Assembly: GCA_020621405.1 (NCBI GenBank)
Contig: JAHRYN010000002.1
Location: forward strand, 733,676-797,675
From: Betaproteobacteria bacterium
GTDB taxonomy: Bacteria; Pseudomonadota; Gammaproteobacteria; Burkholderiales; Rhodocyclaceae
Reading direction: 5' to 3'
Length of the DNA stretch: 64,000 nt
Part shown: piece after piece, positions 1-13,768 of the stretch
Layout of the letters: each line of letters opens with the position of its first letter
How positions within the stretch are numbered: the first letter of the stretch is position 1
Notes under the pieces: generated by a model
Databases searched by the model: none
The model's input: the letters and a program-made list of their open reading frames with translations, nothing else
What the model was told of the DNA's origin: nothing
Program-made: the position numbers and the translations under genes

Positions 1-31
1 GCCTGTCGCTCAGCGAGAAGGAAGAAGCGCA

Positions 32-1213
32 TTGAGGGAAATACCGCCGACCGCCGGACTGCCGCTCGAATGGCGTGACCTGTGGTCGTCGTCCGGCACC
101 TCGCTCGAGACCGGTCTGGCGGACTTTCTGCAGGTATCCGACGTGCAGATCACCTGCTCGGGCACCGCGGCGCAGATCGTCACGCTGACCGCGCTGCGGC
201 GGCAGAGCGCACGGCGCAAGGTCATCCTGCCCGGCTTCACCTGTCCGCTGGTCGCACTGGCCGTACTGCACTGCGGACTGCAGCCGGTACTGTGCGACCT
301 GCTGCCCGGCCATTTCGACCTCGATCCGGATCACCTGGCCCGGCTGTGCGACGAGGACACGCTGGCCATCGTCGCGACCCATCTCGGCGGGCGCGTCGCC
401 AATCTGGCACCGCTGCTCGCCATCGCGCGCCGCACGGGCGCCAGCGTCATCGAGGATGCCGCCCAGTCGCTGGGGGCGCGCTGGCAGGGCGTGCCGGTCG
501 GTCTGGCAGGCGACGCCGGTTTCCACAGTCTGGCGGTCGGCAAAGGTCTGACGACCTTCGAAGGCGGCGTGCTGCTGACGCGCGACGCGCCGCTGCGCCA
601 GCGGCTGCTCGATACCGCGGCCGACATCGCCCCCTTCAGCTGGCGCTGGGAACTGCAGCGCAGCGCCGAACTGCTGGGTTACGCCGCGCTGTACCGCCCC
701 TGCGGGCTGTCACTCGCCTACGGCTGGCCACTGCGCCGGGCAATCCGGCGCGGCCGGCTGATTGAGGCGGTCGGCGACGACTTCAGCGACGACATCCCGC
801 TGCATCGGCCCGGCCGCTGGCGCAAGTCGGTTGGCGCCCGTGCGCTGCAGCGTCTGCCGGCCTTTCTCGGCCTGCTCAAGCGGCAAGCGGAAACACGATT
901 GCAACGGCTGGCCGCCATGCCTGGCATCACGGTCATGCGCGATGCGGCAGGTGACGAAGGCACCTGGCCCTTCCTGATGGTGCTGATGCCGGACCGGGCG
1001 GCGCGCGACGCGGCGCTGGACCGGCTGTGGCAGCGCGGCCTGGGCGTGAGCCGCCTGTACATCCATGCGCTGTCGGACTATCCCTATCTGGCCGGACGCC
1101 TGAGCTCCGAACAGACGCCGAACGCACGCGACTTCGCCAGCCGCCTGCTGACCCTCTCGAACAGCCCCTGGCTCGACGACGACGCCTTCGACACCGTCTG
1201 CGCCGCTTTGTAA
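32..1213 (+). CDS. DegT/DnrJ/EryC1/StrS-family PLP aminotransferase (5' end possibly outside window)
   Basis: The 393-residue frame has the layout of sugar or small-molecule aminotransferases of the DegT/StrS fold. An N-terminal substrate and cofactor region is followed by the motif IEDAAQSLGA, the usual Asp that contacts the pyridine nitrogen. Next comes FHSLAVGKGLTTFEGG, in which Lys171 is the expected Schiff-base lysine. The family transfers an amino group from glutamate or glutamine to a keto substrate, often a nucleotide keto-sugar but also small keto compounds. The start given is a TTG codon. The frame stays open to the window edge, so the true start may lie further left. The gene converges on the arginase-fold gene with 4 bases between stops. 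Its position beside an ACP/ketoacyl-synthase operon suggests a non-sugar substrate, but that is inference. Confidence 0.8.
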   Translation: MREIPPTAGLPLEWRDLWSSSGTSLETGLADFLQVSDVQITCSGTAAQIVTLTALRRQSARRKVILPGFTCPLVALAVLHCGLQPVLCDLLPGHFDLDPDHLARLCDEDTLAIVATHLGGRVANLAPLLAIARRTGASVIEDAAQSLGARWQGVPVGLAGDAGFHSLAVGKGLTTFEGGVLLTRDAPLRQRLLDTAADIAPFSWRWELQRSAELLGYAALYRPCGLSLAYGWPLRRAIRRGRLIEAVGDDFSDDIPLHRPGRWRKSVGARALQRLPAFLGLLKRQAETRLQRLAAMPGITVMRDAAGDEGTWPFLMVLMPDRAARDAALDRLWQRGLGVSRLYIHALSDYPYLAGRLSSEQTPNARDFASRLLTLSNSPWLDDDAFDTVCAAL

Positions 1214-1217
1214 GCGT

Positions 1218-2087
1218 TCATTGCGCGAGCGCGTGCAGGATGGCGAGGTTGACCGAACGGTGTTCGGCCTGCCAGCGCTGCAGATCGGCCTCGGCAATGT
1301 CGGGCTGACCGTCCAGACCGCTCAGCATCCGCTTGAACCGGCTGTCGTAACGATAGACCGACACTTCGCCGGTCACGTCGGCACCGACCACACGCTGGCG
1401 CAGCGCTCCGATGACGGACTGCATTTCGCTCAGACGCATCACGCCCTGATCCCAGTTGGTGTGGGCGTCATCGGCCGACAGTACGTCCTTGTCGACTGAC
1501 AGATAGACCGGCTCGGTGCGTGCCGCCGATGCGCTGCCAAAGGCGTCGGCCAGTTCGCCGACCGAGGCGAAGGAACGGCTGTGCGTAATGCCCAACCAGC
1601 GCATCCAGCCCAGGTCGCGACCGACACACCAGTAGCGCACCCTGCCTGACTTAAGGTTGCGCAGGTGGTTCTCCCAGCCGTGAGCACGCTCGACATCGGT
1701 GGACGTGATGCCCAGGACGTCGATCTGCGCCACGAAGGGCAGGCGGCTCGCATGCCACACCCAGGAGCCGCAGTGGATGCCCCACGGATAGCGCATGTTG
1801 TCAGGGTGGTTGTCGAACACCACGACATGCAGCGGCCGGCCCAGCGCGCGGTAGCGCTCCAGCAGCAGGCAGGTGACATGGTGATAGTCGCCGCTGCCCA
1901 TGAACACCACGCCGGGCTGCCGGACCAGCGCCGGCGCCAGCGAATCGCCCAGCGCACGCAGCTGGCCGAGCGGACAGCCGAAGCGGATCGCTTCCTGCCA
2001 GCGACCCAGTTCGATCGACTCGCTACCCGGCAGCGGCAGCACCGAGCGGTCGAAATCGAGGATCAGCGGGTTTGCTGTCGGTGCCAT
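1218..2087 (-). CDS. arginase/agmatinase-fold metallohydrolase, divergent
   Basis: This 289-residue protein carries recognisable ureohydrolase-fold metal motifs in order: GSGDYHHVT in place of GGDHS, FDNHPDN in place of DAHxD, and LSVDKDVLSADD in place of SxDxDxxDP. All expected Asp/His metal ligands are present although the surrounding residues differ from true arginases. A two-metal amidinohydrolase or related C-N hydrolase is therefore likely, with unknown substrate. The ATG at 2087 was chosen because the fold begins shortly after it; it overlaps the end of the upstream GNAT gene by 25 bases, so the two are probably translated together. It is the last gene of the ACP/ketoacyl-synthase operon. 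In that setting it could deguanidinate or deacylate an intermediate, or supply ornithine or another amine. Confidence 0.72.
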   Translation of the reverse strand: MAPTANPLILDFDRSVLPLPGSESIELGRWQEAIRFGCPLGQLRALGDSLAPALVRQPGVVFMGSGDYHHVTCLLLERYRALGRPLHVVVFDNHPDNMRYPWGIHCGSWVWHASRLPFVAQIDVLGITSTDVERAHGWENHLRNLKSGRVRYWCVGRDLGWMRWLGITHSRSFASVGELADAFGSASAARTEPVYLSVDKDVLSADDAHTNWDQGVMRLSEMQSVIGALRQRVVGADVTGEVSVYRYDSRFKRMLSGLDGQPDIAEADLQRWQAEHRSVNLAILHALAQ

Positions 2088-3127
2088 GAGGCGTCGGCTT
2101 CGAACAGGCGCTTGAACGGCTTCAGCAAGGTGCGGAGCACCGGATTGCGCACATGCACGGCGTGCTGCGTCAGCGTGAACGAGGCGCCGAGCGCGCGCTT
2201 GATCTCCGGATCGGTCCAGCCCGCCACGTAGTGCGTCAGGCCGTTGTCGAGCGCGTACTGCAGGTTCTGGAACCAGCTCACCATGTACAGGTTGTGTTCC
2301 CTCGCCTGTGGGTAACGGAAGCCGACGTACTTGTCGAGCAGCATGCCGTTGTGCACGAAGCACAGGTTGTAGCCGATCAGCTCGCCCTGCGCGCGATAGC
2401 TGAACACCACGCCGCCGAGCGTGCCGTCCTGCAGCACGGCGCGGAAGAATTCCGGCGTCAGCAGATCGAAGTGGATTTCGCTCTGCCGGTACACCTCGAG
2501 ATACATCTCGTAGTGCAGCAGCAGCGTGGCTTCGTCGAAGAAACGGGCGTCACCGGTATGGACAATGTCGATGACGAGGTCTTCGCGCGACTTCAGCTTG
2601 CGCCGCAGATCCTTGCGCCGCGACTTGGACAGCCGTTCGAAATACGCGTCGATGCTGGCGAAATCAAGCGCCACATACGCCAGCGCCTGCCCTTCGACCA
2701 GGATGAAGCCGTGCCGGCCGCACGCTTCCCGTACGGCCTGACTGCTGGCGAAGGCGGCGTCGCCGACCAGCGTCGCTTCGGTCGGAATGTCCTTGACGAT
2801 GACGAAGCTGTGCTCCGGCAGCGTACGGCGCAGCAGATCCTCCAGAAAGGCATCCGCCGACCCGTCGGGCAGCGGCGCGTACTCGGTGCAGGTGGCGCCG
2901 ACAAAGCAGGTGTAGGGCACGCACCAGCGCCGCCAGACGCGCGACAACGGCAGCGCTTCGAGCTTGCGCCGGTCGGGTGGATCAACCGTGGTCAACAGGT
3001 CGAACGGCGCCGAAAACGCGGGCACACCGCGGTCGAGTTCGCGGGTGCTGAATCCCTGCGGCGGGTAGTCGAGAAAGTGCCGGATCAGGCCGGGCGGCTC
3101 GATCAGATTGTGCAGAGACGCGCGCAT
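2063..3127 (-). CDS. GNAT/FemAB-like acyl- or aminoacyl-transferase
   Basis: A protein of 354 residues whose C-terminal half resembles the FemAB/BioF2-like GNAT group. It has a basic helix SKSRRKDLRRKLK, then YEMYLEVYRQ, a beta-rich stretch with GELIGYNLCFVHNG, then DKYVGFRYPQARE and a C-terminal helix. Members move acyl or aminoacyl groups from CoA, ACP or tRNA onto amines; the substrate here is not known. The ATG at 3127 shares its first base with the TGA of the ketoacyl synthase gene (TGATG), which argues for translational coupling and for this start over in-frame codons further up. Coupling to an ACP and a condensing enzyme makes an acyl-ACP donor plausible. Confidence 0.7.
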   Translation of the reverse strand: MRASLHNLIEPPGLIRHFLDYPPQGFSTRELDRGVPAFSAPFDLLTTVDPPDRRKLEALPLSRVWRRWCVPYTCFVGATCTEYAPLPDGSADAFLEDLLRRTLPEHSFVIVKDIPTEATLVGDAAFASSQAVREACGRHGFILVEGQALAYVALDFASIDAYFERLSKSRRKDLRRKLKSREDLVIDIVHTGDARFFDEATLLLHYEMYLEVYRQSEIHFDLLTPEFFRAVLQDGTLGGVVFSYRAQGELIGYNLCFVHNGMLLDKYVGFRYPQAREHNLYMVSWFQNLQYALDNGLTHYVAGWTDPEIKRALGASFTLTQHAVHVRNPVLRTLLKPFKRLFEADASWHRQQTR

Positions 3128-4356
3128 CAGGGCTTGCGCGCGATGAGAACCCCGCAGGTACCGCCGAACGCGAAGGAATTCGACATAACCGTATTCACCC
3201 GGACGTTCTCCCGGCCGATGTTGGGTATGTAGTCCAGATCGCATTCCGGGTCGGGCTGCACCAGATGCGCAGTAGGCGGCAGCGCCTGCTTTTCCAGCGC
3301 CATCAGGCAGGCGACGAATTCCACGGCGCCCGCCGCGCCCATCAGGTGACCATGCATGGATTTGGTAGAGCTCACCGGAATGGCCGAACCGCAGACCTGC
3401 TTGATGGCCGCCGTTTCGGTGACGTCATTGAGCTTGGTGCCGGTGCCATGGGCGTTGATGTAGTCCAGCTGATCGGCCGTAATGCCGGCATCGGCGAGCG
3501 CACGGCGCATCGCGCGGGCCTGGCCTTCGACCGACGGCTGGGTGATGTGCGACGAGTCGTTGCTGCTGCCATAGCCGATTATTTCGGCGTAGATGCGGGC
3601 ACCGCGGGCAAGCGCGCTCTCCATGTCCTCGAGCACCACCATGGCCGCCCCCTCACCCAGCACCAGACCGCTGCGATCCGCGGAAAACGGCTTGCACGAG
3701 GCGGACGGATTGTCCGCATCTTCGTTGGCCAGCGTACGCAGCGCTTCCCAGGCCTTGATCGTGCCGTAGGTCAGCAAGGCTTCCGAACCGCCCGCCAGCA
3801 TCACGTCGGCGTAGCCATGACGGATCTGGCGCGCCGCTTCGCCAATGGCGACCGCGGACGACGAACAGGCCGTGCAGAAAGTCAGGTCCGGGCCGGTGAG
3901 GCCGAATTCGAGGGCCACCTGGGAACCGGCGGCATTGTTCATGGCCATCAGCACGGTGAAGGGCTTCAGGCGGCTCGCATTATCGCGATACAGGCGCACA
4001 TAGCCTTCCTCGATCGAGCTCGAACCACCCATGCCGGTGCCGAGATAGACGCCCACACGTTCGCGGTCCATCATCTCCAGATCGAGACCGGCGTCGGCAA
4101 TGGCCTGCTGGCTGGCCACGACGGCAAACTGCGTGACGCGATCCATCGCGCCCGCCTTGCTCCTGGACATGTGGGCCAGCGGATCGAAATCGGGGATCCA
4201 GGCCGCAATCCTGGTGTCGAGCGCATCGACGAACGCCGATTCCAGCCGCCGGATGCCCGACTGCCCTGCCATCAGGGTCGAGAAGAAGGTTTCACGATCA
4301 TTGCCTACCGGCGACAGTATCCCCGCGCCGGTGACGACGACACGCCTGGCCGGCAT
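3127..4356 (-). CDS. beta-ketoacyl-ACP synthase, FabF-like (KS)
   Basis: The protein is 409 residues, the usual length of KAS II enzymes. It begins RRVVVTGAGILSPVGN, typical of the family. The condensing triad is intact: nucleophile Cys in FCTACSSSAVAIG, first His in NAHGTGTKLND, second His in KSMHGHLMGAAGAVE. It should catalyse decarboxylative condensation of an acyl group with a malonyl-ACP type extender. The start overlaps the stop of the ACP gene by one base (TAATG), so the KS is translated directly after its probable carrier protein. No ketoreductase, dehydratase or malonyltransferase lies nearby, so either a single condensation occurs or general fatty-acid enzymes are borrowed. It is unlikely to be the housekeeping fabF because the usual fab neighbours are absent. 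Confidence 0.9.
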   Translation of the reverse strand: MPARRVVVTGAGILSPVGNDRETFFSTLMAGQSGIRRLESAFVDALDTRIAAWIPDFDPLAHMSRSKAGAMDRVTQFAVVASQQAIADAGLDLEMMDRERVGVYLGTGMGGSSSIEEGYVRLYRDNASRLKPFTVLMAMNNAAGSQVALEFGLTGPDLTFCTACSSSAVAIGEAARQIRHGYADVMLAGGSEALLTYGTIKAWEALRTLANEDADNPSASCKPFSADRSGLVLGEGAAMVVLEDMESALARGARIYAEIIGYGSSNDSSHITQPSVEGQARAMRRALADAGITADQLDYINAHGTGTKLNDVTETAAIKQVCGSAIPVSSTKSMHGHLMGAAGAVEFVACLMALEKQALPPTAHLVQPDPECDLDYIPNIGRENVRVNTVMSNSFAFGGTCGVLIARKP

Positions 4357-4598
4357 TACTTGCCCTGCTCGGCACGCAGTCGGTCGATCAGCGAGACGAC
4401 ATCCTGCACCGTCTTGATCGCGACTTCGTCATTCGACACCACGATGCCGAATTTTTCTTCCGCTTCGAAAATGATGTCGAAAGTGTCTAGCGAATCGATT
4501 TCCAGCGACTCCAGCGCGGATTCGAGAGTGATGTCTTCCGCCTTCTTCTCGAATTTCCTGACGATGATTTCACGCAGCGTCTCGAAGGTATCCAACAT
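4356..4598 (-). CDS. dedicated acyl carrier protein
   Basis: An 80-residue acidic protein with the four-helix ACP pattern. The phosphopantetheine attachment serine lies in LEIDSLDTFDIIFEAEEKF, matching the DSL signature at the start of helix II. It would carry acyl intermediates as thioesters on the prosthetic arm. It sits 6 bases after the alpha/beta hydrolase gene and overlaps the ketoacyl synthase gene by one base. That tight coupling indicates a pathway-specific carrier rather than housekeeping acpP, which is normally found with fabD-fabG-fabF. No phosphopantetheinyl transferase is present in the window. Confidence 0.9.
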   Translation of the reverse strand: MLDTFETLREIIVRKFEKKAEDITLESALESLEIDSLDTFDIIFEAEEKFGIVVSNDEVAIKTVQDVVSLIDRLRAEQGK

Positions 4599-4604
4599 GG
4601 CCCC

Positions 4605-5471
4605 CTATACCGCAGCAACCGCAACCGCTTCGTGCGCGGAACATTCACTGAAAAAATCAGCCAGGCGATACGCCACGTCTTCCTTTCGCTTGTCGAGAGT
4701 CAATACGTGATAGGTATCGTCGACGAAGAACATTTCAACCTTGCGCGATGATATGCGCTGCGCCACGAAATGGGCATTCCTGACGCTCGCCATGTCATCC
4801 TCGGTCGAATGCACGATGAGGGCCGGCGAACGCACGTTTGGCAGTGCCTTGCGCGCCGCCTCGATCAGCCTCAGGCTTTCCCGGATCGTCACCGCCGGTG
4901 TGCGGAAGATGCCGACCTTTTCAGCCGCCTTTGCATCGCGATTGGTCAGCACGGCGTGCACGAGCGCGCGTGTGCGCTCGCACTTGATGCCATAGGGCGG
5001 CGTTTCTTCCCACGACATGAAGTGCTTGAGTGGCGTGTGCAGCACGACGGGCAGCAGGAACTTGCGCCTCAGCTGCGGCATGTTCCAGCCGTCGTAGAAG
5101 AAGGTTGTCGACAGAAGGCCAAGCCCGCTCACGCGTTCGCCCTTCTGTTCCGCGAGTTTCAGCGCGATCAGCGCGCCCATGGACAGGCCGGACACGAAGA
5201 CACGTTCATGCTGTGCCTTCAGCGCCTCGAAAGTACGTTCGACCGAGCCGTACCATTCCTGCCATGTGGATCGCTTGAGGTCACCTTCACTGGCACAGTG
5301 TCCGGCAAGCTGGGGGCAGGCCACGCTGCAACCGCGCCGCATCAGGCTTTTTCCCACATGCCTCATCTCGGCCGGGGTACCGGTCAGACCATGGACCAGC
5401 AAAACTACGTCATCCCCTCGTCTGTCGTAAAAACCGGACGGGCCGAGGCAATCCTGTAATGTCTGAGTCAT
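4605..5471 (-). CDS. alpha/beta hydrolase (esterase/lysophospholipase/thioesterase-like)
   Basis: This 288-residue protein has the serine hydrolase fold. It shows the oxyanion region LLVHGLTGTPAEM, nucleophile elbow SGLSMGALIALK, acid residue in IVHSTEDDMAS and catalytic His in VDDTYHVLTLDKRKED. The pattern resembles monoacylglycerol lipase and carboxylesterase members of the S33/Est30 type. As first gene of the operon ahead of the ACP and ketoacyl synthase it may release the product from the carrier protein, but an editing or deacylase role is equally possible. No signal peptide is seen, so the enzyme is probably cytoplasmic. Confidence 0.8.
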   Translation of the reverse strand: MTQTLQDCLGPSGFYDRRGDDVVLLVHGLTGTPAEMRHVGKSLMRRGCSVACPQLAGHCASEGDLKRSTWQEWYGSVERTFEALKAQHERVFVSGLSMGALIALKLAEQKGERVSGLGLLSTTFFYDGWNMPQLRRKFLLPVVLHTPLKHFMSWEETPPYGIKCERTRALVHAVLTNRDAKAAEKVGIFRTPAVTIRESLRLIEAARKALPNVRSPALIVHSTEDDMASVRNAHFVAQRISSRKVEMFFVDDTYHVLTLDKRKEDVAYRLADFFSECSAHEAVAVAAV

Positions 5472-5764
5472 ATGTAGGATGTTTTGTTGCAGTCTTCAGC
5501 GCTCATGAAATACGCAGGTTGCAGGCCGGATGGCAAAAACTTCAAGGACTCCATGCAACCTTGCCCGACATCGGGAAAAGTCCTGGCGTTTATCCCGTCG
5601 ACACCAGCCGGCCAACTGCGCCAGCCACCCGACGAAACAACTTTCCATGGCACATTGTCACACCAGCAGGCTGTCATTTACCTTTCATCTGGCGGTGGAG
5701 CGTTTCCGCCGGATCTGGATCCCAGTAACGCATCTCATCGACTGCAGGCTGACACCAGAACTGC

Positions 5765-7138
5765 CTACTCTGCGCCGCAACGACGCAGCAGCATCTCGAA
5801 CAGGTGGATGCCGAGGTCAATTTCCTCTTCCGTGATCAGCAACGACGGTGCCAGCGTGATGACGTTCTTCTGGTAGCCCCCGATATCGAGCACCAGACCG
5901 TACTTCTTGTCACCGACAACCAGATCGCCCTTGAGACCCTCATTGAACATCCGGTCGGCAAGCGCGCGGCTCGCAGTGTACCCATCCTTCTCGCAGAGTT
6001 CTATCCGCAGCGCGAGTCCGAGGCCGCTGACGTCGCCAACCACCTTCCAACGGGACTTCAGTTCCTGGATGCGCTTCAGGAAGTAGGCGCCACGATTGCG
6101 GACGTGCGGTTCGAAGTCCGCTTCCTGGGTCATCTTCAGCACTTCGAGCGCCACCGAGGTTCCGAGCGGATTCGACGCAAAGGTGGAGTGCGTCGAGCCG
6201 GGCGGGAATTTCTGCGGGCTGATCAGTTCCTCGCGCGCCCAGATGCCGGACAGCGGATTGAGGCCGTTCGTGATCGCCTTGCCGAACACGAACACATCGG
6301 GAACGATGTCGAAGTTCTCCCAGGACCACAGCTTGCCGGTGCGATAGACCCCCATCTGGATCTCGTCGGCCACCAGCAGCACGTTGCGCTTCTTCAGCGA
6401 TTCCTGGAGCTTGCGCATGTAGCCGGCCGGCGGAACGATGTAGCCGCCCGTGCCCTGCATCGGCTCGATGTAGAACGCACCGAATTCGCACTGGCCCGAC
6501 TTCTCGTCCCAGAAAGACTGGTATTCAGTCTCGAACAGCTTCTCGAATTCCTTGTGGCAGTAGGTGTCACAGGTTTCGACCTTCATGTCGTACGGGCAGC
6601 GGAAGCAGTACGGGTAGGGCACGAAGTGCGCGCGATCGGAGAAATTGCCGAAACGGCGGCGATAGCGATAGCTGGAAGTGATCGCCGAAGCGCCCAGCGT
6701 CCGTCCGTGATAGCCACCCATGAAGGCGAACTGGTGCGTCTTGCCGGTGTGGTTGCGCACCAGCTTCAGCGAATCCTCGACCGCCTGCGCACCGCCGACA
6801 TTGAAATGCACACGACCCTTGACGCCGTACTTGTCCTCGACGTACTTGCAGATCAGCTCCGCCAGATCGACCTTTTCCTTATGCAGATACTGGCTGGCCA
6901 GCTGCGGCAGCGTGTCGATCTGTTTTTTCAGTACGTCGGCAATCCGCTTGTTCTTGTAGCCGAAATTGACCGCCGAGTACCACATCTGCCAGTCAAGGTA
7001 GGACGTACCGTTCTCGTCGAACAGAAAGCTGCCGTCGCAACCTTCGAAAACCTTGGGCGGATCAGCGTAGTTGACCGTGTCGCCATGCGAGCAGTACTGA
7101 TCGTTCTTGGCCAGAATTTCGATTATTTTTTGATTCAT
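5765..7138 (-). CDS. class III aminotransferase with Cys-rich insertion
   Basis: The protein has 457 residues and the full class III (GABA/ornithine aminotransferase) pattern. Visible are NVGGAQAVEDSLKL, YHGRTLGAS, the Asp of LLVADEIQMGVYRTGK and the PLP lysine in VFGKAITNGLNPLSG. Between the YHGRT region and the EPMQGTGGY region is a cysteine cluster, PYCFRCPYDMKVETCDTYC (CX2CX8CX3C). Related clusters occur in some archaeal and bacterial omega-aminotransferases. The enzyme would exchange a terminal amino group with 2-oxoglutarate or pyruvate. It lies 37 bases after the HAD phosphatase gene and is probably cotranscribed with it. Base composition looks lower in GC than the flanking genes. Confidence 0.88.
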   Translation of the reverse strand: MNQKIIEILAKNDQYCSHGDTVNYADPPKVFEGCDGSFLFDENGTSYLDWQMWYSAVNFGYKNKRIADVLKKQIDTLPQLASQYLHKEKVDLAELICKYVEDKYGVKGRVHFNVGGAQAVEDSLKLVRNHTGKTHQFAFMGGYHGRTLGASAITSSYRYRRRFGNFSDRAHFVPYPYCFRCPYDMKVETCDTYCHKEFEKLFETEYQSFWDEKSGQCEFGAFYIEPMQGTGGYIVPPAGYMRKLQESLKKRNVLLVADEIQMGVYRTGKLWSWENFDIVPDVFVFGKAITNGLNPLSGIWAREELISPQKFPPGSTHSTFASNPLGTSVALEVLKMTQEADFEPHVRNRGAYFLKRIQELKSRWKVVGDVSGLGLALRIELCEKDGYTASRALADRMFNEGLKGDLVVGDKKYGLVLDIGGYQKNVITLAPSLLITEEEIDLGIHLFEMLLRRCGAE

Positions 7139-7175
7139 GTTCAGTTGAATTCGATTCGGAATTGCTGCAGGACCT

Positions 7176-7844
7176 TCAGGCGCTCAATCCAGCACGACGC
7201 GGCGGCACCTTGTACGGCCACGCTCTGACCTTGGACAGCACGTCCGCAAAGGTCTGGAATTTGAAATGGGGGATGTCGTTCTTTTCACAGAACTTGATCA
7301 GCGATCCCTTGGCGAAGACGATGTCGGCCTGCCGCGCAAGGCATTCGTCGGACTTGCCGTCACCGACGAGAATCACCCGCTTGTCGCTGCCGGACAGGTC
7401 GCGCGCGACCGCACACTTGCACACACCGTTGCCACCGACACAGGCCGCGTTCTTGTGCGGCCATGAGATGTCGATGCCGTCAGGCACGAAGTGGAGCTTG
7501 TTGGCGTAAACCGGCACTTCCGGCAGTTCTGCATTCTTTATTGCCACCTTGATCGCGTGGTCCAGACCATCGCTGACGATGGCGACCGACGCAAACTGGC
7601 TGACATGCTTGTAGAACGGCAGGAAGCTGGCATCCAGCTGGATGCCCCTGAAGAAGTTCTCTATCGTCACATGGTCGGATTTGACCATCCGGAGCTGCTT
7701 CTGCATGCACTCCACCGCAGTGATGTGGCCGTCCAGCCACTCCTGCTCAACCTCTTCCCACTCCGGCCCTGCAAAACGTTCCAGCATCGCGTCGACCGTA
7801 TCGTGGACCGACAGCGTTCCATCAAAATCAATTAAGAAGAGCAT
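7176..7844 (-). CDS. HAD-superfamily (IB-type) phosphatase, PSP/MtnX-like
   Basis: This 222-residue protein starts at the ATG immediately before LFLIDFDGTLSVHDT, which is HAD motif I with both catalytic Asp residues. Motif II is in VAIVSDGLD and motif IV in VILVGDGKSDECLA. The size and helical cap after motif I fit phosphoserine phosphatase and MtnX-type enzymes. A short Cys-containing loop, ACVGGNGVCKCAV, sits before motif IV. It probably dephosphorylates a small phosphate ester. In-frame start codons exist up to 7916, but the catalytic core begins at residue 4 of the chosen start. The downstream aminotransferase suggests a two-step phosphatase and transamination branch. Confidence 0.8.
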   Translation of the reverse strand: MLFLIDFDGTLSVHDTVDAMLERFAGPEWEEVEQEWLDGHITAVECMQKQLRMVKSDHVTIENFFRGIQLDASFLPFYKHVSQFASVAIVSDGLDHAIKVAIKNAELPEVPVYANKLHFVPDGIDISWPHKNAACVGGNGVCKCAVARDLSGSDKRVILVGDGKSDECLARQADIVFAKGSLIKFCEKNDIPHFKFQTFADVLSKVRAWPYKVPPRRAGLSA

Positions 7845-12055: not shown

Positions 12056-13627
12056 TTACTTCGCGGCGCGACGACGCGCCGCCAGGCCGATCATGCCGAT
12101 CATGCCGATGCCGGCCAGCATCAGCGCCCAGCTTTCCGGCTCGGGAACCGGGGCCAGCTGGAACACCGAGGTGGTATTCGAGACTTCGTTGGAATAGGCG
12201 AGGTAGTGCATGCCGTCCAGCGCATAGCCCTTCAGTCCTTCCGGCGCCATGTCGCCGTCGGTCTTGAGCATGCGCACGAAGCTGCTGTTGGCCGGATCCG
12301 TGATGTCGAACACGGCGATCGCGGCAACCCGCTTGCTCACGGTCGAATCGTCGTTGCTGTAGGCCGTGCGCTCGAGACCGACAAAGGCGAAGCTTTTGCC
12401 GCCGATGGAAATGACTTCGACGCTTTCCGGTTCGACGCCCTTGTCGCGGCTGCGCGCATCGTTGTAGATGCCCAGCGTCATGGCTTCACGGTCGAGAATC
12501 TCACCGCTGTCGTAGATGATCGTGCCGTCTTCGGCGCGAATCGAGAACGAGCGACCGCCCGCGGCGTACAGATCGCCAGCGGACGAATCGGTGTTGGAAA
12601 CGCGCAGATTGGCCAGCGTGCCGGTGGCGCCGAGCGTACTGGCAGCCGAACGGTCACCGTCGTCCTCGCGGAAATCACCCTCGTTGGCCATCAGGATGTA
12701 GGTCTGGCCACCCTTTTCATAGGTTGCCATTCCATCGGGCATGTACAGCCCCTTGACGTTGGGCGAAATCAGGTCGTAGCCGCTCGTTCCCGTCTTGTTG
12801 CCATTGTTCAGCGGATCGATGCGGTTGCCCGGCTGGCTGAAGTCCTTGGCGCCGAGACCGACCACCTTCTCGAACTGGCCGCTCTGCAGGTTCAGCACAC
12901 CCATGGCGTTGGCTTCCTGCAGCGACACGTAGGCCTTGGTGCCGGCAGCATTGACGGCAATGTACTCGGGCTCGAAATCCATGCCGGTGTTGGTGCGGAT
13001 GTGGCTACCGCTCTGCGCGACGCCCGCCAGCGTGGCGGTCGAGGTGACGCTGCGGGTGTTCATGTCGATGATGCTCACGCTGCCGACCGGATCGTTCGGC
13101 GAAGCGCCGTTGATGCGAGGCACCGTGGTGCCGATGCGGCTGCCGTAGACGGTCGGCGTGGCTTCGTTGGCGACCAGCAGCTTGCTGCCGTCCCTGGTGA
13201 AGGTGAGCATGTCGGGCAGCGCGCCGACGGAGATCGTGTTCGTGCCGCTGGCGAGCGTGCGGGTCGCGGTGTCGAACAGCTTCACGACACCCGGCTGCGT
13301 GCGGTCGACCGTGTTCTCGATGGCGAAGGCGGCGATGCCGTTGCTGATCGACACGCTGTTGATGGAACCAAAGGACGTGACGTCGATGCGCTGCAGAAAG
13401 CTGCCGTTCGCAGCATCGAGCACGTCCACGCCAGTGACACCCGCCACCCACAGCGTCCGGGTCGCGCTGTCGAAAGTGACGATTTCGGAGAGGAAGCCAC
13501 CGTCGGCGTGCGAATAGGTCCACGCCTTCGTGGCGCCGTCGATCAGGCTGGCCGCAGCGGCCGGGGTCGTGGCCAGCGTCAGCGCGAAGGCGGACGCAAG
13601 CGCGGCAGAAAGAATCTTTTTATTCAT
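12056..13627 (-). CDS. PEP-CTERM sorted exported protein with choice-of-anchor I-type beta-propeller
   Basis: A 523-residue exported protein. The ATG at 13627 opens a clear signal peptide (KKILSAALASAFALTLATT, cleavage near AAAA-SL). The body has repeated propeller-like strands with surface-protein character: TLWVAGVTGVDVLDAANG, DMLTFTRDGSKLLVANE, YILMANEGDFRED and GVEPESVEVISIGGK. This matches the choice-of-anchor I family, often mislabelled alkaline phosphatase. The C terminus is a canonical PEP-CTERM tail: VPEPESWALM, a hydrophobic helix, then AARRRAAK. Such tails are recognised by exosortase, which is not encoded in this window. The mature protein should be processed at the membrane and released or surface-displayed, usually in exopolysaccharide-producing bacteria. 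Confidence 0.9.
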   Translation of the reverse strand: MNKKILSAALASAFALTLATTPAAAASLIDGATKAWTYSHADGGFLSEIVTFDSATRTLWVAGVTGVDVLDAANGSFLQRIDVTSFGSINSVSISNGIAAFAIENTVDRTQPGVVKLFDTATRTLASGTNTISVGALPDMLTFTRDGSKLLVANEATPTVYGSRIGTTVPRINGASPNDPVGSVSIIDMNTRSVTSTATLAGVAQSGSHIRTNTGMDFEPEYIAVNAAGTKAYVSLQEANAMGVLNLQSGQFEKVVGLGAKDFSQPGNRIDPLNNGNKTGTSGYDLISPNVKGLYMPDGMATYEKGGQTYILMANEGDFREDDGDRSAASTLGATGTLANLRVSNTDSSAGDLYAAGGRSFSIRAEDGTIIYDSGEILDREAMTLGIYNDARSRDKGVEPESVEVISIGGKSFAFVGLERTAYSNDDSTVSKRVAAIAVFDITDPANSSFVRMLKTDGDMAPEGLKGYALDGMHYLAYSNEVSNTTSVFQLAPVPEPESWALMLAGIGMIGMIGLAARRRAAK

Positions 13628-13768
13628 TGTGGAAATCCATCCGGTTCGGTGAATGAGCGGCCACGCCAGAAGCGTGGCCGGCATGTCCGCATGAGAGCCG
13701 GATGAGATTTCCCGGGCGTTACAGGAAGATTGCGACACATAAATTTGCAATCTTTCCGTAACGCCGGC

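Follow-up and report, generated by a model that had tools for sequence, protein, structure and literature searches.

Eight genes at the left end (positions 32 to 7844) of a 64,000-nucleotide stretch of contig JAHRYN010000002.1 (C2:733676-797675, the whole of which is called the window here), from a betaproteobacterium with a 3.8-Mb genome in 12 contigs (GCA_020621405.1), form together with two EamA/SMR genes left of its edge a ten-gene cluster that is conserved as a set. The cluster is read tentatively, and with somewhat less than even confidence, as a pathway spread by horizontal transfer whose product would be an N-acylated amino-alcohol lipid, synthesised within the cell and then flipped to the other side of the inner membrane. 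Sequence comparisons and predicted models establish the gene set, its co-inheritance and transfer, the catalytic residues, the folds, and the division into widespread and optional parts. An earlier note, made from the letters alone, had suggested an N-acyl or amino-lipid product, and this is still the best reading of the locus.

The two small membrane protein genes, SMR1 (C2:732971-733330, 119 amino acids) and, to its right, SMR2 (C2:733327-733710, 127 amino acids), lie on the plus strand, as does DegT; SMR2 starts 349 bases left of window base 1, and its 3' end occupies window positions 1..35. SMR1 and SMR2, as well as SMR2 and DegT, overlap by 4 bases. The EamA family (PF00892) is matched by SMR1 and SMR2 with 35.3 and 35.6 bits. 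DegT (32..1213), which belongs to the optional parts of the set, encodes a DegT/DnrJ/EryC1/StrS-family pyridoxal phosphate (PLP) aminotransferase (PF01041, 162 bits). The other seven genes are on the minus strand. ARG (1218..2087) encodes a protein of a divergent subfamily with a ureohydrolase (arginase/agmatinase) fold (PF00491, 29.6 bits, cut-off 22), FEM (2063..3127) a FemAB/GNAT-fold, N-acyltransferase-like protein (PF04339, 45 bits; PF13480, 42 bits), KS (3127..4356) a FabF-type beta-ketoacyl-ACP synthase (NF005589, 478 bits, cut-off 387), and ACP (4356..4598) an acyl carrier protein (PF00550, 36.9 bits). HYD (4605..5471) encodes an S33-type alpha/beta hydrolase (PF12146, 86 bits) proposed here as a second acyltransferase or transacylase, AT3 (5765..7138) a class III PLP aminotransferase (PF00202, 249 bits) that is the best-conserved member of the set, and HAD (7176..7844) the partner of AT3, an MtnX-like HAD-IB phosphatase (TIGR01489, 91 bits, cut-off 81.55; Pfam HAD/Put_Phosphatase). 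ACP and KS overlap by 1 base, KS and FEM by 1 base, and FEM and ARG by 25 bases, and a gap of 6 bases separates HYD from ACP. The eight genes, with their positions, strands and families, and the tight coupling from the hydrolase to the arginase-fold gene are thus as first described, with Pfam assigning each named family and the coordinates giving the same overlaps and gap. The supposition that genes lie further left, among them an adenylation enzyme, held in part: the cluster does continue past the edge, but the missing part is the membrane protein pair, and no adenylation enzyme was recognised in the translations of the 20 kb left of the window, which were read without a family search.

Occurrence of the gene set in other genomes and on plasmids

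With FEM as the bait, 87 pattern-matching stretches were retrieved from a collection of 84,980 species genomes, and 71 loci were confirmed. These include L094, a partial FEM match that was left out of the comparison of near and far neighbours because none of its parts scored above the threshold. Genes of unannotated loci were called with our own codon model, and the part-score thresholds behind the locus counts were self-chosen. By record titles, the 71 loci come from Betaproteobacteria, Gammaproteobacteria (Dyella, Dokdonella, Rudaea, Pseudomonas luteola, Ignatzschineria, and Wohlfahrtiimonas), Bartonella apis and its relatives, and Oxalobacter, as well as from bins named Nitrospira, Nitrospirae, Thermodesulfovibrionales, and Thermoanaerobaculia and from one spirochaete bin. 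The carriers include environmental, plant-associated, and human-skin isolates and B. apis, an inhabitant of the bee gut. ARG directly adjoins FEM in 67 of the 71 loci. The gene order of the cluster varies among lineages, which indicates that the set is kept together by something besides the shared descent of one segment. Recurrence of the same set in distant genomes and in different orders is more than chance, and it bears out the idea of one functional locus. Homologues scattered over unrelated places were looked for, since the earlier note had named them as telling against a common pathway; the genes are mostly kept together, although some lineages carry them at two or more separate sites in the genome.

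Among 121 relatives, FEM matches (E <= 1e-5) were found in 13, comprising 7 orthologues (48-100% identity, E <= 5.3e-99) and 6 weak matches (24-29%). AT3 (E <= 1e-100) occurs in the same 7 genomes that have a FEM orthologue and in one other, G028, and ARG (E <= 1e-5) occurs in 6 of these 7 and in no other genome. The 18 kb read in G028 hold HAD, an AT3 with 82% identity, HYD, a FEM with 25-26% identity, two small EamA-type proteins, KS, and ACP, with ARG and DegT absent from them. In 398 genomes of the phylum, FEM (E <= 1e-20) was found in 22 and AT3 (E <= 1e-120) in 25, with both present in 21, compared with 1.4 expected if the two were independent, a figure that ignores relatedness. Plasmids also carry the set: among 72,556 plasmid records, FEM matches (E <= 1e-5) were found in 48 and AT3 matches (E <= 1e-100) in 34, all of which are among the 48. 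The distance matrices of the eight proteins correlate in all 28 pairs (r 0.62-0.91), and none of 200 permutations reached the r of any pair. The strongest agreement occurs within two blocks, HAD-AT3-HYD (r 0.88-0.91) and FEM-ARG-DegT (r 0.87-0.90), which suggests two co-inherited modules, although species relatedness alone also yields such correlation.

FEM was found in 2 of the 13 genomes of the host's genus, the host's own included, and AT3 in the same 2. The housekeeping protein GcvP of the host is 90-91% identical to those of the three genus mates searched and 60% identical to that of Novimethylophilus. AT3 is 62% identical to its counterpart in the genus mate G005 and 93% identical to that in Novimethylophilus, and the corresponding identities of FEM are 54% and 73%. 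These identities point to separate acquisition of the cluster by horizontal transfer. On a plasmid from a Bartonella bat isolate (L116:12460-18509), AT3, FEM, and ARG lie ahead of genes for an AlgX-like SGNH protein and, by annotation, an MBOAT O-acyltransferase, and no other cluster part was found in the 29 kb read.

Core and optional genes

In total, 45 FEM loci were at least 18 kb long. ARG was found in 42 of them, HYD in 39, an SMR protein in 38, DegT in 34, HAD in 26, ACP in 17, and KS in 16. AT3 was scored in 29, which is an upper figure, the training set of its profile having included class III paralogues (L047 and L051) and copies related to glutamate-1-semialdehyde aminomutase (GSAM) (L061, L119, L121, and L093); strict AT3 numbers are the ones from the relatives, the phylum, the plasmids, and the whole-genome searches of FEM carriers. 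With AT3 as the bait, loci were taken from 16 of the 25 AT3 genomes, three of them shorter than 8 kb and ending at a contig end. HAD and HYD were each found in 15 of these 16 loci, FEM, ARG, KS, and an SMR protein in 6 each, ACP in 5, and DegT in 3; several of the genomes carry FEM elsewhere. HAD, AT3, HYD, FEM, and the EamA/SMR pair are the most widespread parts, with KS/ACP, ARG, and DegT optional. ARG was not found in L081, L093, and L128, which retain much of the remaining set, and in L127 (genome G063), which has HAD, AT3, HYD, the SMR pair, DegT, and FEM, no ARG follows FEM. The annotation shows no DegT in the clusters read from Rhizobium, Agrobacterium, Phyllobacterium, and Aureimonas, the first three being compact plasmid clusters (L117, L118, and L120).

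The earlier note had placed ACP and KS at the centre of the pathway. Their presence in 17 and 16 of the 45 loci, against 42 for ARG and 39 for HYD, does not favour this, and because they occur in a minority of FEM loci they look like an optional acyl-supply module. Nor is the suggested transamination of an ACP-bound intermediate indicated, since AT3 accompanies HAD rather than ACP.

Predicted functions of the proteins

The catalytic residues of the enzymes are intact in the window and kept in relatives. The PLP lysine of AT3, K287, is kept in all 75 sequences aligned, paralogues among them, and the position of K171 in DegT is a lysine in all 58 aligned sequences. D30, D32, and D190 of HAD are conserved in 63 of 63, C164, H303, and K332 of KS in 32 of 32, and Ser36 of ACP in 22 of 22. 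A further KS position scored, which immediately precedes the GH histidine, is uninformative on the catalytic His and was disregarded. KS also reaches 478.9 bits with the fabF equivalog of NCBIfam, just under its cut-off of 493.75. The nearest solved relatives of DegT are mostly sugar aminotransferases.

The window copy of AT3 shares 56-81% identity with 22 relatives chosen for diversity, and the most distant AT3 found (53%) stands alone at positions 9912-11288 of L169 in genome G149. A threonine occupies, in 69 of 75 AT3 sequences, the position at which the solved structures 7vno, 2eo5, 9wqz, and 4ppm have an arginine; 3n5m has a threonine as well. This arginine binds the substrate carboxylate in gamma-aminobutyric acid and ornithine aminotransferases, and its loss in AT3 would fit a substrate without an alpha-carboxylate.

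AT3 was also searched for in the whole genomes of 16 FEM carriers, one of which (L044) already had AT3 beside FEM; the remaining 15 correspond to the long FEM loci without AT3 nearby, L094 excepted. AT3 is carried elsewhere in 11 of the 15, and HAD adjoins it in all four cases inspected (L175, L176, L177, and L180, the last being the same as L187). The other four (Rudaea, L037 and L088, together with L036 and L052) lack AT3 and have HAD with another class III aminotransferase beside it. This substitute is 86-91% identical to the L061 copy, 73-75% to a Roseomonas plasmid copy, and about 24% to AT3, and it is related to GSAM, with NF000818 over and hemL below the cut-off. A GSAM-like aminotransferase lies beside HAD in Roseomonas and Aureimonas too, and in the spirochaete locus L093 a class III aminotransferase other than AT3 is found there. 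A distant aminotransferase family can thus replace AT3 beside the same phosphatase. The occurrence of two distantly related aminotransferases next to one phosphatase is good evidence that a single small molecule is both aminated and dephosphorylated, in two steps.

A sequence search of the PDB (phmmer) with ARG and FEM gave no match at E <= 1, and predicted folds were used instead; NCBIfam likewise gave no match for either protein. The predicted model of FEM (predicted local distance difference test [pLDDT], 92.0) is a double GNAT fold of the FemX/MprF kind. Its top Foldseek matches are FemX, streptothricin aminoacyl-tRNA-dependent peptide synthases, and the MprF domain, with template modelling (TM) scores of about 0.5-0.55. 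The predicted model of ARG (pLDDT, 94.9) has a ureohydrolase fold; there were 154 Foldseek matches at E <= 0.001, and the 50 listed are all ureohydrolases (best E, 2.6e-8; TM score, about 0.5-0.6), with proclavaminate amidinohydrolase and agmatinases leading among the matches listed. H68, H69, D91, H93, D95, D198, and D200 of ARG are invariant in 30 of 30 sequences and cover what we take to be the two-metal motif of the family, that is, one His, Asp-x-His-x-Asp, and Asp-x-Asp. After the Asp-x-Asp pair, ARG reads TNWDQG, presumably in the place of the usual ureohydrolase motif.

The nucleophile of HYD, S97, is a serine in 64 of 72 sequences and a cysteine in 8, the latter being those of L071, three Nitrospirae/Thermodesulfovibrionales loci, the spirochaete locus, and the Rhizobium, Agrobacterium, and Phyllobacterium plasmids. 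The GxCxG nucleophile is that of polyester synthases, and its presence in some copies suggests that HYD catalyses acyl transfer rather than plain ester cleavage.

Proposed biosynthetic route

In the proposed route, AT3 or its GSAM-like substitute would aminate a small phosphorylated ketone or aldehyde; as a first guess, dihydroxyacetone phosphate (DHAP) would yield serinol phosphate. FEM would attach a fatty acyl chain to the amine from an acyl-ACP donor, supplied by the KS and ACP of the cluster where these are present, and HAD would strip the phosphate. HYD would add or exchange a second acyl chain rather than only cleave esters, and the optional DegT and ARG would decorate or deprotect the head. 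The EamA/SMR pair would then flip the lipid across the membrane, and in some species a neighbouring DevBCA-TolC-type exporter may carry it onward. A comparable sequence of steps is described for the serinol decoration of the Campylobacter jejuni capsule, in which Cj1437, Cj1438C, and Cj1435 act in DHAP amination, amide formation, and then HAD dephosphorylation (PMC11800397), and for RtxA the formation of serinol from DHAP is reported (PMC3222319). A more specific possibility, which we consider unlikely though worth stating, is that the product represents an unrecognised class of membrane lipid, in which a serinol-like aminated C3 alcohol would replace glycerol and carry one chain in amide linkage, with an aminotransferase, N-acyltransferase, transacylase, and flippase pair of its own, spread horizontally across several phyla.

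Genes for lipid tailoring occur near some of the clusters. Those of Rhizobium leguminosarum and Phyllobacterium have a fatty acid desaturase and a cyclopropane fatty acid (CFA) synthase between or beside the core genes, called by Pfam for the Rhizobium pair and by annotation for Phyllobacterium, so that two of the three compact plasmid clusters have both enzymes built in. A CFA synthase gene lies two genes from HYD, near AT3, in L163. A fatty acid hydroxylase (Pfam) adjoins FEM in L029 and has BLAST relatives near the clusters of L026 and L035, and in L128 diacylglycerol kinase (DAGK) and CDP-alcohol transferase genes follow the cluster. An exporter is located no more than four genes from the cluster in 14 loci. 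Its ATPase is closest to DevA, below the cut-off, and devC is the sole NCBIfam match at E <= 1e-10, again below the cut-off, for the three permeases compared. DevC-like genes were found among 14 of 698 near neighbours and 0 of 331 far ones. DevBCA exports heterocyst glycolipids in cyanobacteria. MipA-family proteins occur in L039, L050, L072, L166, and L167 by Pfam and in L117 and L120 by annotation. A histidine kinase is near 21 of the 71 FEM loci; sensor kinases and response regulators are frequent, with no clear enrichment.

Alternative explanations

Several observations weigh against an acylated amino-alcohol lipid. Every chemical step of the route is one that we infer, and serinol phosphate as the product of AT3 is a first guess by analogy. 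In its NSxxR stretch, the GSAM-like substitute retains the arginine found in GSAM, possibly a sign that its substrate is a carboxylate. The nearest solved folds of FEM use aminoacyl-tRNA, not acyl-ACP, aminoacyl-tRNA being the donor of MprF, and the absence of KS and ACP from most FEM loci leaves an ACP donor unproven. ARG keeps the ureohydrolase metal ligands, which a simple acyl-amino-alcohol route would not need, and the roles of ARG and DegT are unexplained by that route. Four of the 25 AT3 genomes (G123, G149, G262, and G279) have no FEM match at E <= 1e-20, the AT3 locus of G149 holds no other member of the set in the 20 kb read, and G281 has FEM without AT3 in the search of 398 genomes. 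Lipid-tailoring neighbours are confined to a few loci. Histidine kinases make up 22 of 492 near neighbours and 3 of 225 far ones in one set of loci, compared with 11 of 206 and 6 of 106 in the other; two-component regulation was dropped as evidence, the excess being seen in one set only.

A less likely reading is a biosynthetic cluster for a small, secreted bioactive natural product (an N-acyl amine or an amino-alcohol) that the DevBCA/HlyD/TolC pump would export. Such a product would suit the patchy, horizontally moving distribution, plasmids included, and the DevC-like genes that lie at most four genes away from the cluster in 14 loci. However, the exporter is not seen in most loci, no adenylation, nonribosomal peptide synthetase (NRPS), or modular polyketide synthase (PKS) domain was found by Pfam among the eight window proteins, and the recurrent fatty-acid tailoring genes and the EamA/SMR pair suit a membrane lipid better. 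The conserved metal ligands of ARG, its leading fold matches, and the FemX/MprF fold of FEM would agree with a route that turns arginine into an ornithine- or putrescine-type lipid and in which FEM would acylate arginine or agmatine, or move arginine from tRNA to a lipid, and ARG would release urea; the adjacency of the two genes and the agreement of their distances (r 0.89) point the same way. This route is nevertheless rather improbable, since it gives HAD and AT3 no role and since ARG is missing from three loci that keep much else.

About equally doubtful is an Arn-like envelope amino-sugar route, acting on a polyprenyl- or lipid A-linked sugar, with DegT as ArnB and the EamA/SMR pair as ArnE/ArnF. 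SMR1 and SMR2 do match ArnE/ArnF weakly (30.5 and 32.2 bits, cut-offs 92 and 99), the closest solved relatives of DegT fit such a role, and an ArnT-like enzyme occurs in one locus, L039, with a distant DegT and a sensor kinase nearby. Against this, the conserved parts include no glycosyltransferase or nucleotide-sugar enzyme, and DegT is lacking both in the Rhizobium and Agrobacterium clusters and in most of the loci retrieved with AT3. Chance neighbourhood of unrelated genes would account for the variable gene order and for DegT lying on the opposite strand, but co-occurrence and adjacency across classes and plasmids, already refuting it by the counts, make it a negligible prospect.

Relation to known pathways

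The N-acylated amino-alcohol lipid route most resembles the aminolipid pathways for ornithine, glutamine, and glycine lipids, which use OlsB- and OlsA/OlsF-type enzymes (PMC11631085). An N-acyltransferase fed by acyl-ACP, a second acylation, and a phosphorus-free amino lipid would be common to both, all three being proposed for the present locus. The enzymes differ, with a FemAB/GNAT protein and an alpha/beta hydrolase in their place here, accompanied by the aminotransferase/phosphatase and EamA/SMR pairs. None of the eight window proteins belongs to PF13444, which we take to be the OlsB family, FEM having its matches in PF04339 and PF13480; PF13444 genes are present elsewhere in the genome, the best at C2:938800. 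The PlsC family (PF01553) is likewise missing among the eight proteins, the rest of the genome not having been searched for it. Membership in the OlsB/OlsA group was rejected on these two absences.

The Arn pathway and the locus have in common a DegT-family aminotransferase and two small membrane proteins of the EamA/SMR type. Unlike in Arn, DegT is optional here, and counterparts of ArnA, ArnC, ArnD, and ArnT were not found in the locus: Pfam gave no ArnC/ArnT or ArnA match among the eight window proteins, and none was recognised in the left-flank translations, although L039 has an ArnT-like neighbour. Membership in Arn was rejected because the sugar-transfer enzymes are missing at the locus and DegT is dispensable (34 of 45 long loci). 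In L039 (2756-13587), FEM and ARG lie a few kilobases from the ArnT-like transferase, the distant DegT (26%), SMR proteins, a PAP2 phosphatase, MipA, and a two-component system.

The serinol decoration of C. jejuni resembles the proposed route in its aminated phosphorylated C3 unit, its amide, and its dephosphorylation by a HAD enzyme, but its acyl partner is a sugar acid and its amide enzyme is ATP dependent (PMC11800397), compared with a GNAT-fold protein in a lipid context here; a shared substrate is a guess. FEM shares its fold with FemX and MprF but only about 9-15% identity with the matches, and it has no membrane domain. MprF makes aminoacylated membrane lipids. ARG resembles agmatinase and proclavaminate amidinohydrolase in fold and metal ligand positions; it differs from them in lacking a match to solved chains and in its TNWDQG stretch. 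Because the Ols enzymes are not among the window proteins and the Arn sugar-transfer enzymes are lacking, the locus is assigned to no known family; in the way it would work it is most like an aminolipid pathway, of new composition. No description of the gene set was recognised in open-licence PubMed Central full text, a scope that excludes subscription journals and preprints, in agreement with the earlier note, which knew of no described pathway.

The gene set joins in one pathway several families with unassigned substrates, namely a FemAB-like protein, a divergent ureohydrolase, an aminotransferase with its stand-in, and an EamA/SMR pair, and solving one step would guide the remaining ones. 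It is also a concrete and transferable candidate for lipidomics. Aminolipids can raise colistin tolerance in Acinetobacter (PMC11828411).

Other features near the cluster

YedE-like, queC, and tol/pal-type genes were read from the translations left of SMR1. About 12 kb left of SMR1, at C2:716098-720759 (L009:2399-7060), a phosphatidylserine decarboxylase-like gene lies beside a gene for a 553-amino-acid class III aminotransferase that fits no clear subfamily, with an unassigned 221-amino-acid protein and a glycosyltransferase gene, by reading, in the same segment, which is possibly another lipid locus. Nine PP-binding matches were found genome-wide, and the frame holding several of them is more than 100 kb from the cluster: C2:852892-861655 has four carrier-protein domains, three of them in one frame of 3055 amino acids, and is NRPS/PKS-like. 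A link between the cluster and an exosortase/PEP-CTERM system was considered and rejected, HYD reaching 24 bits with hydr2_PEP against a cut-off of 203. The protein encoded at window positions 12056-13750 on the minus strand has a PEP-CTERM-like anchor (VPEPESWALMLAG) at its C terminus, and this suggests an exosortase system in the genome.

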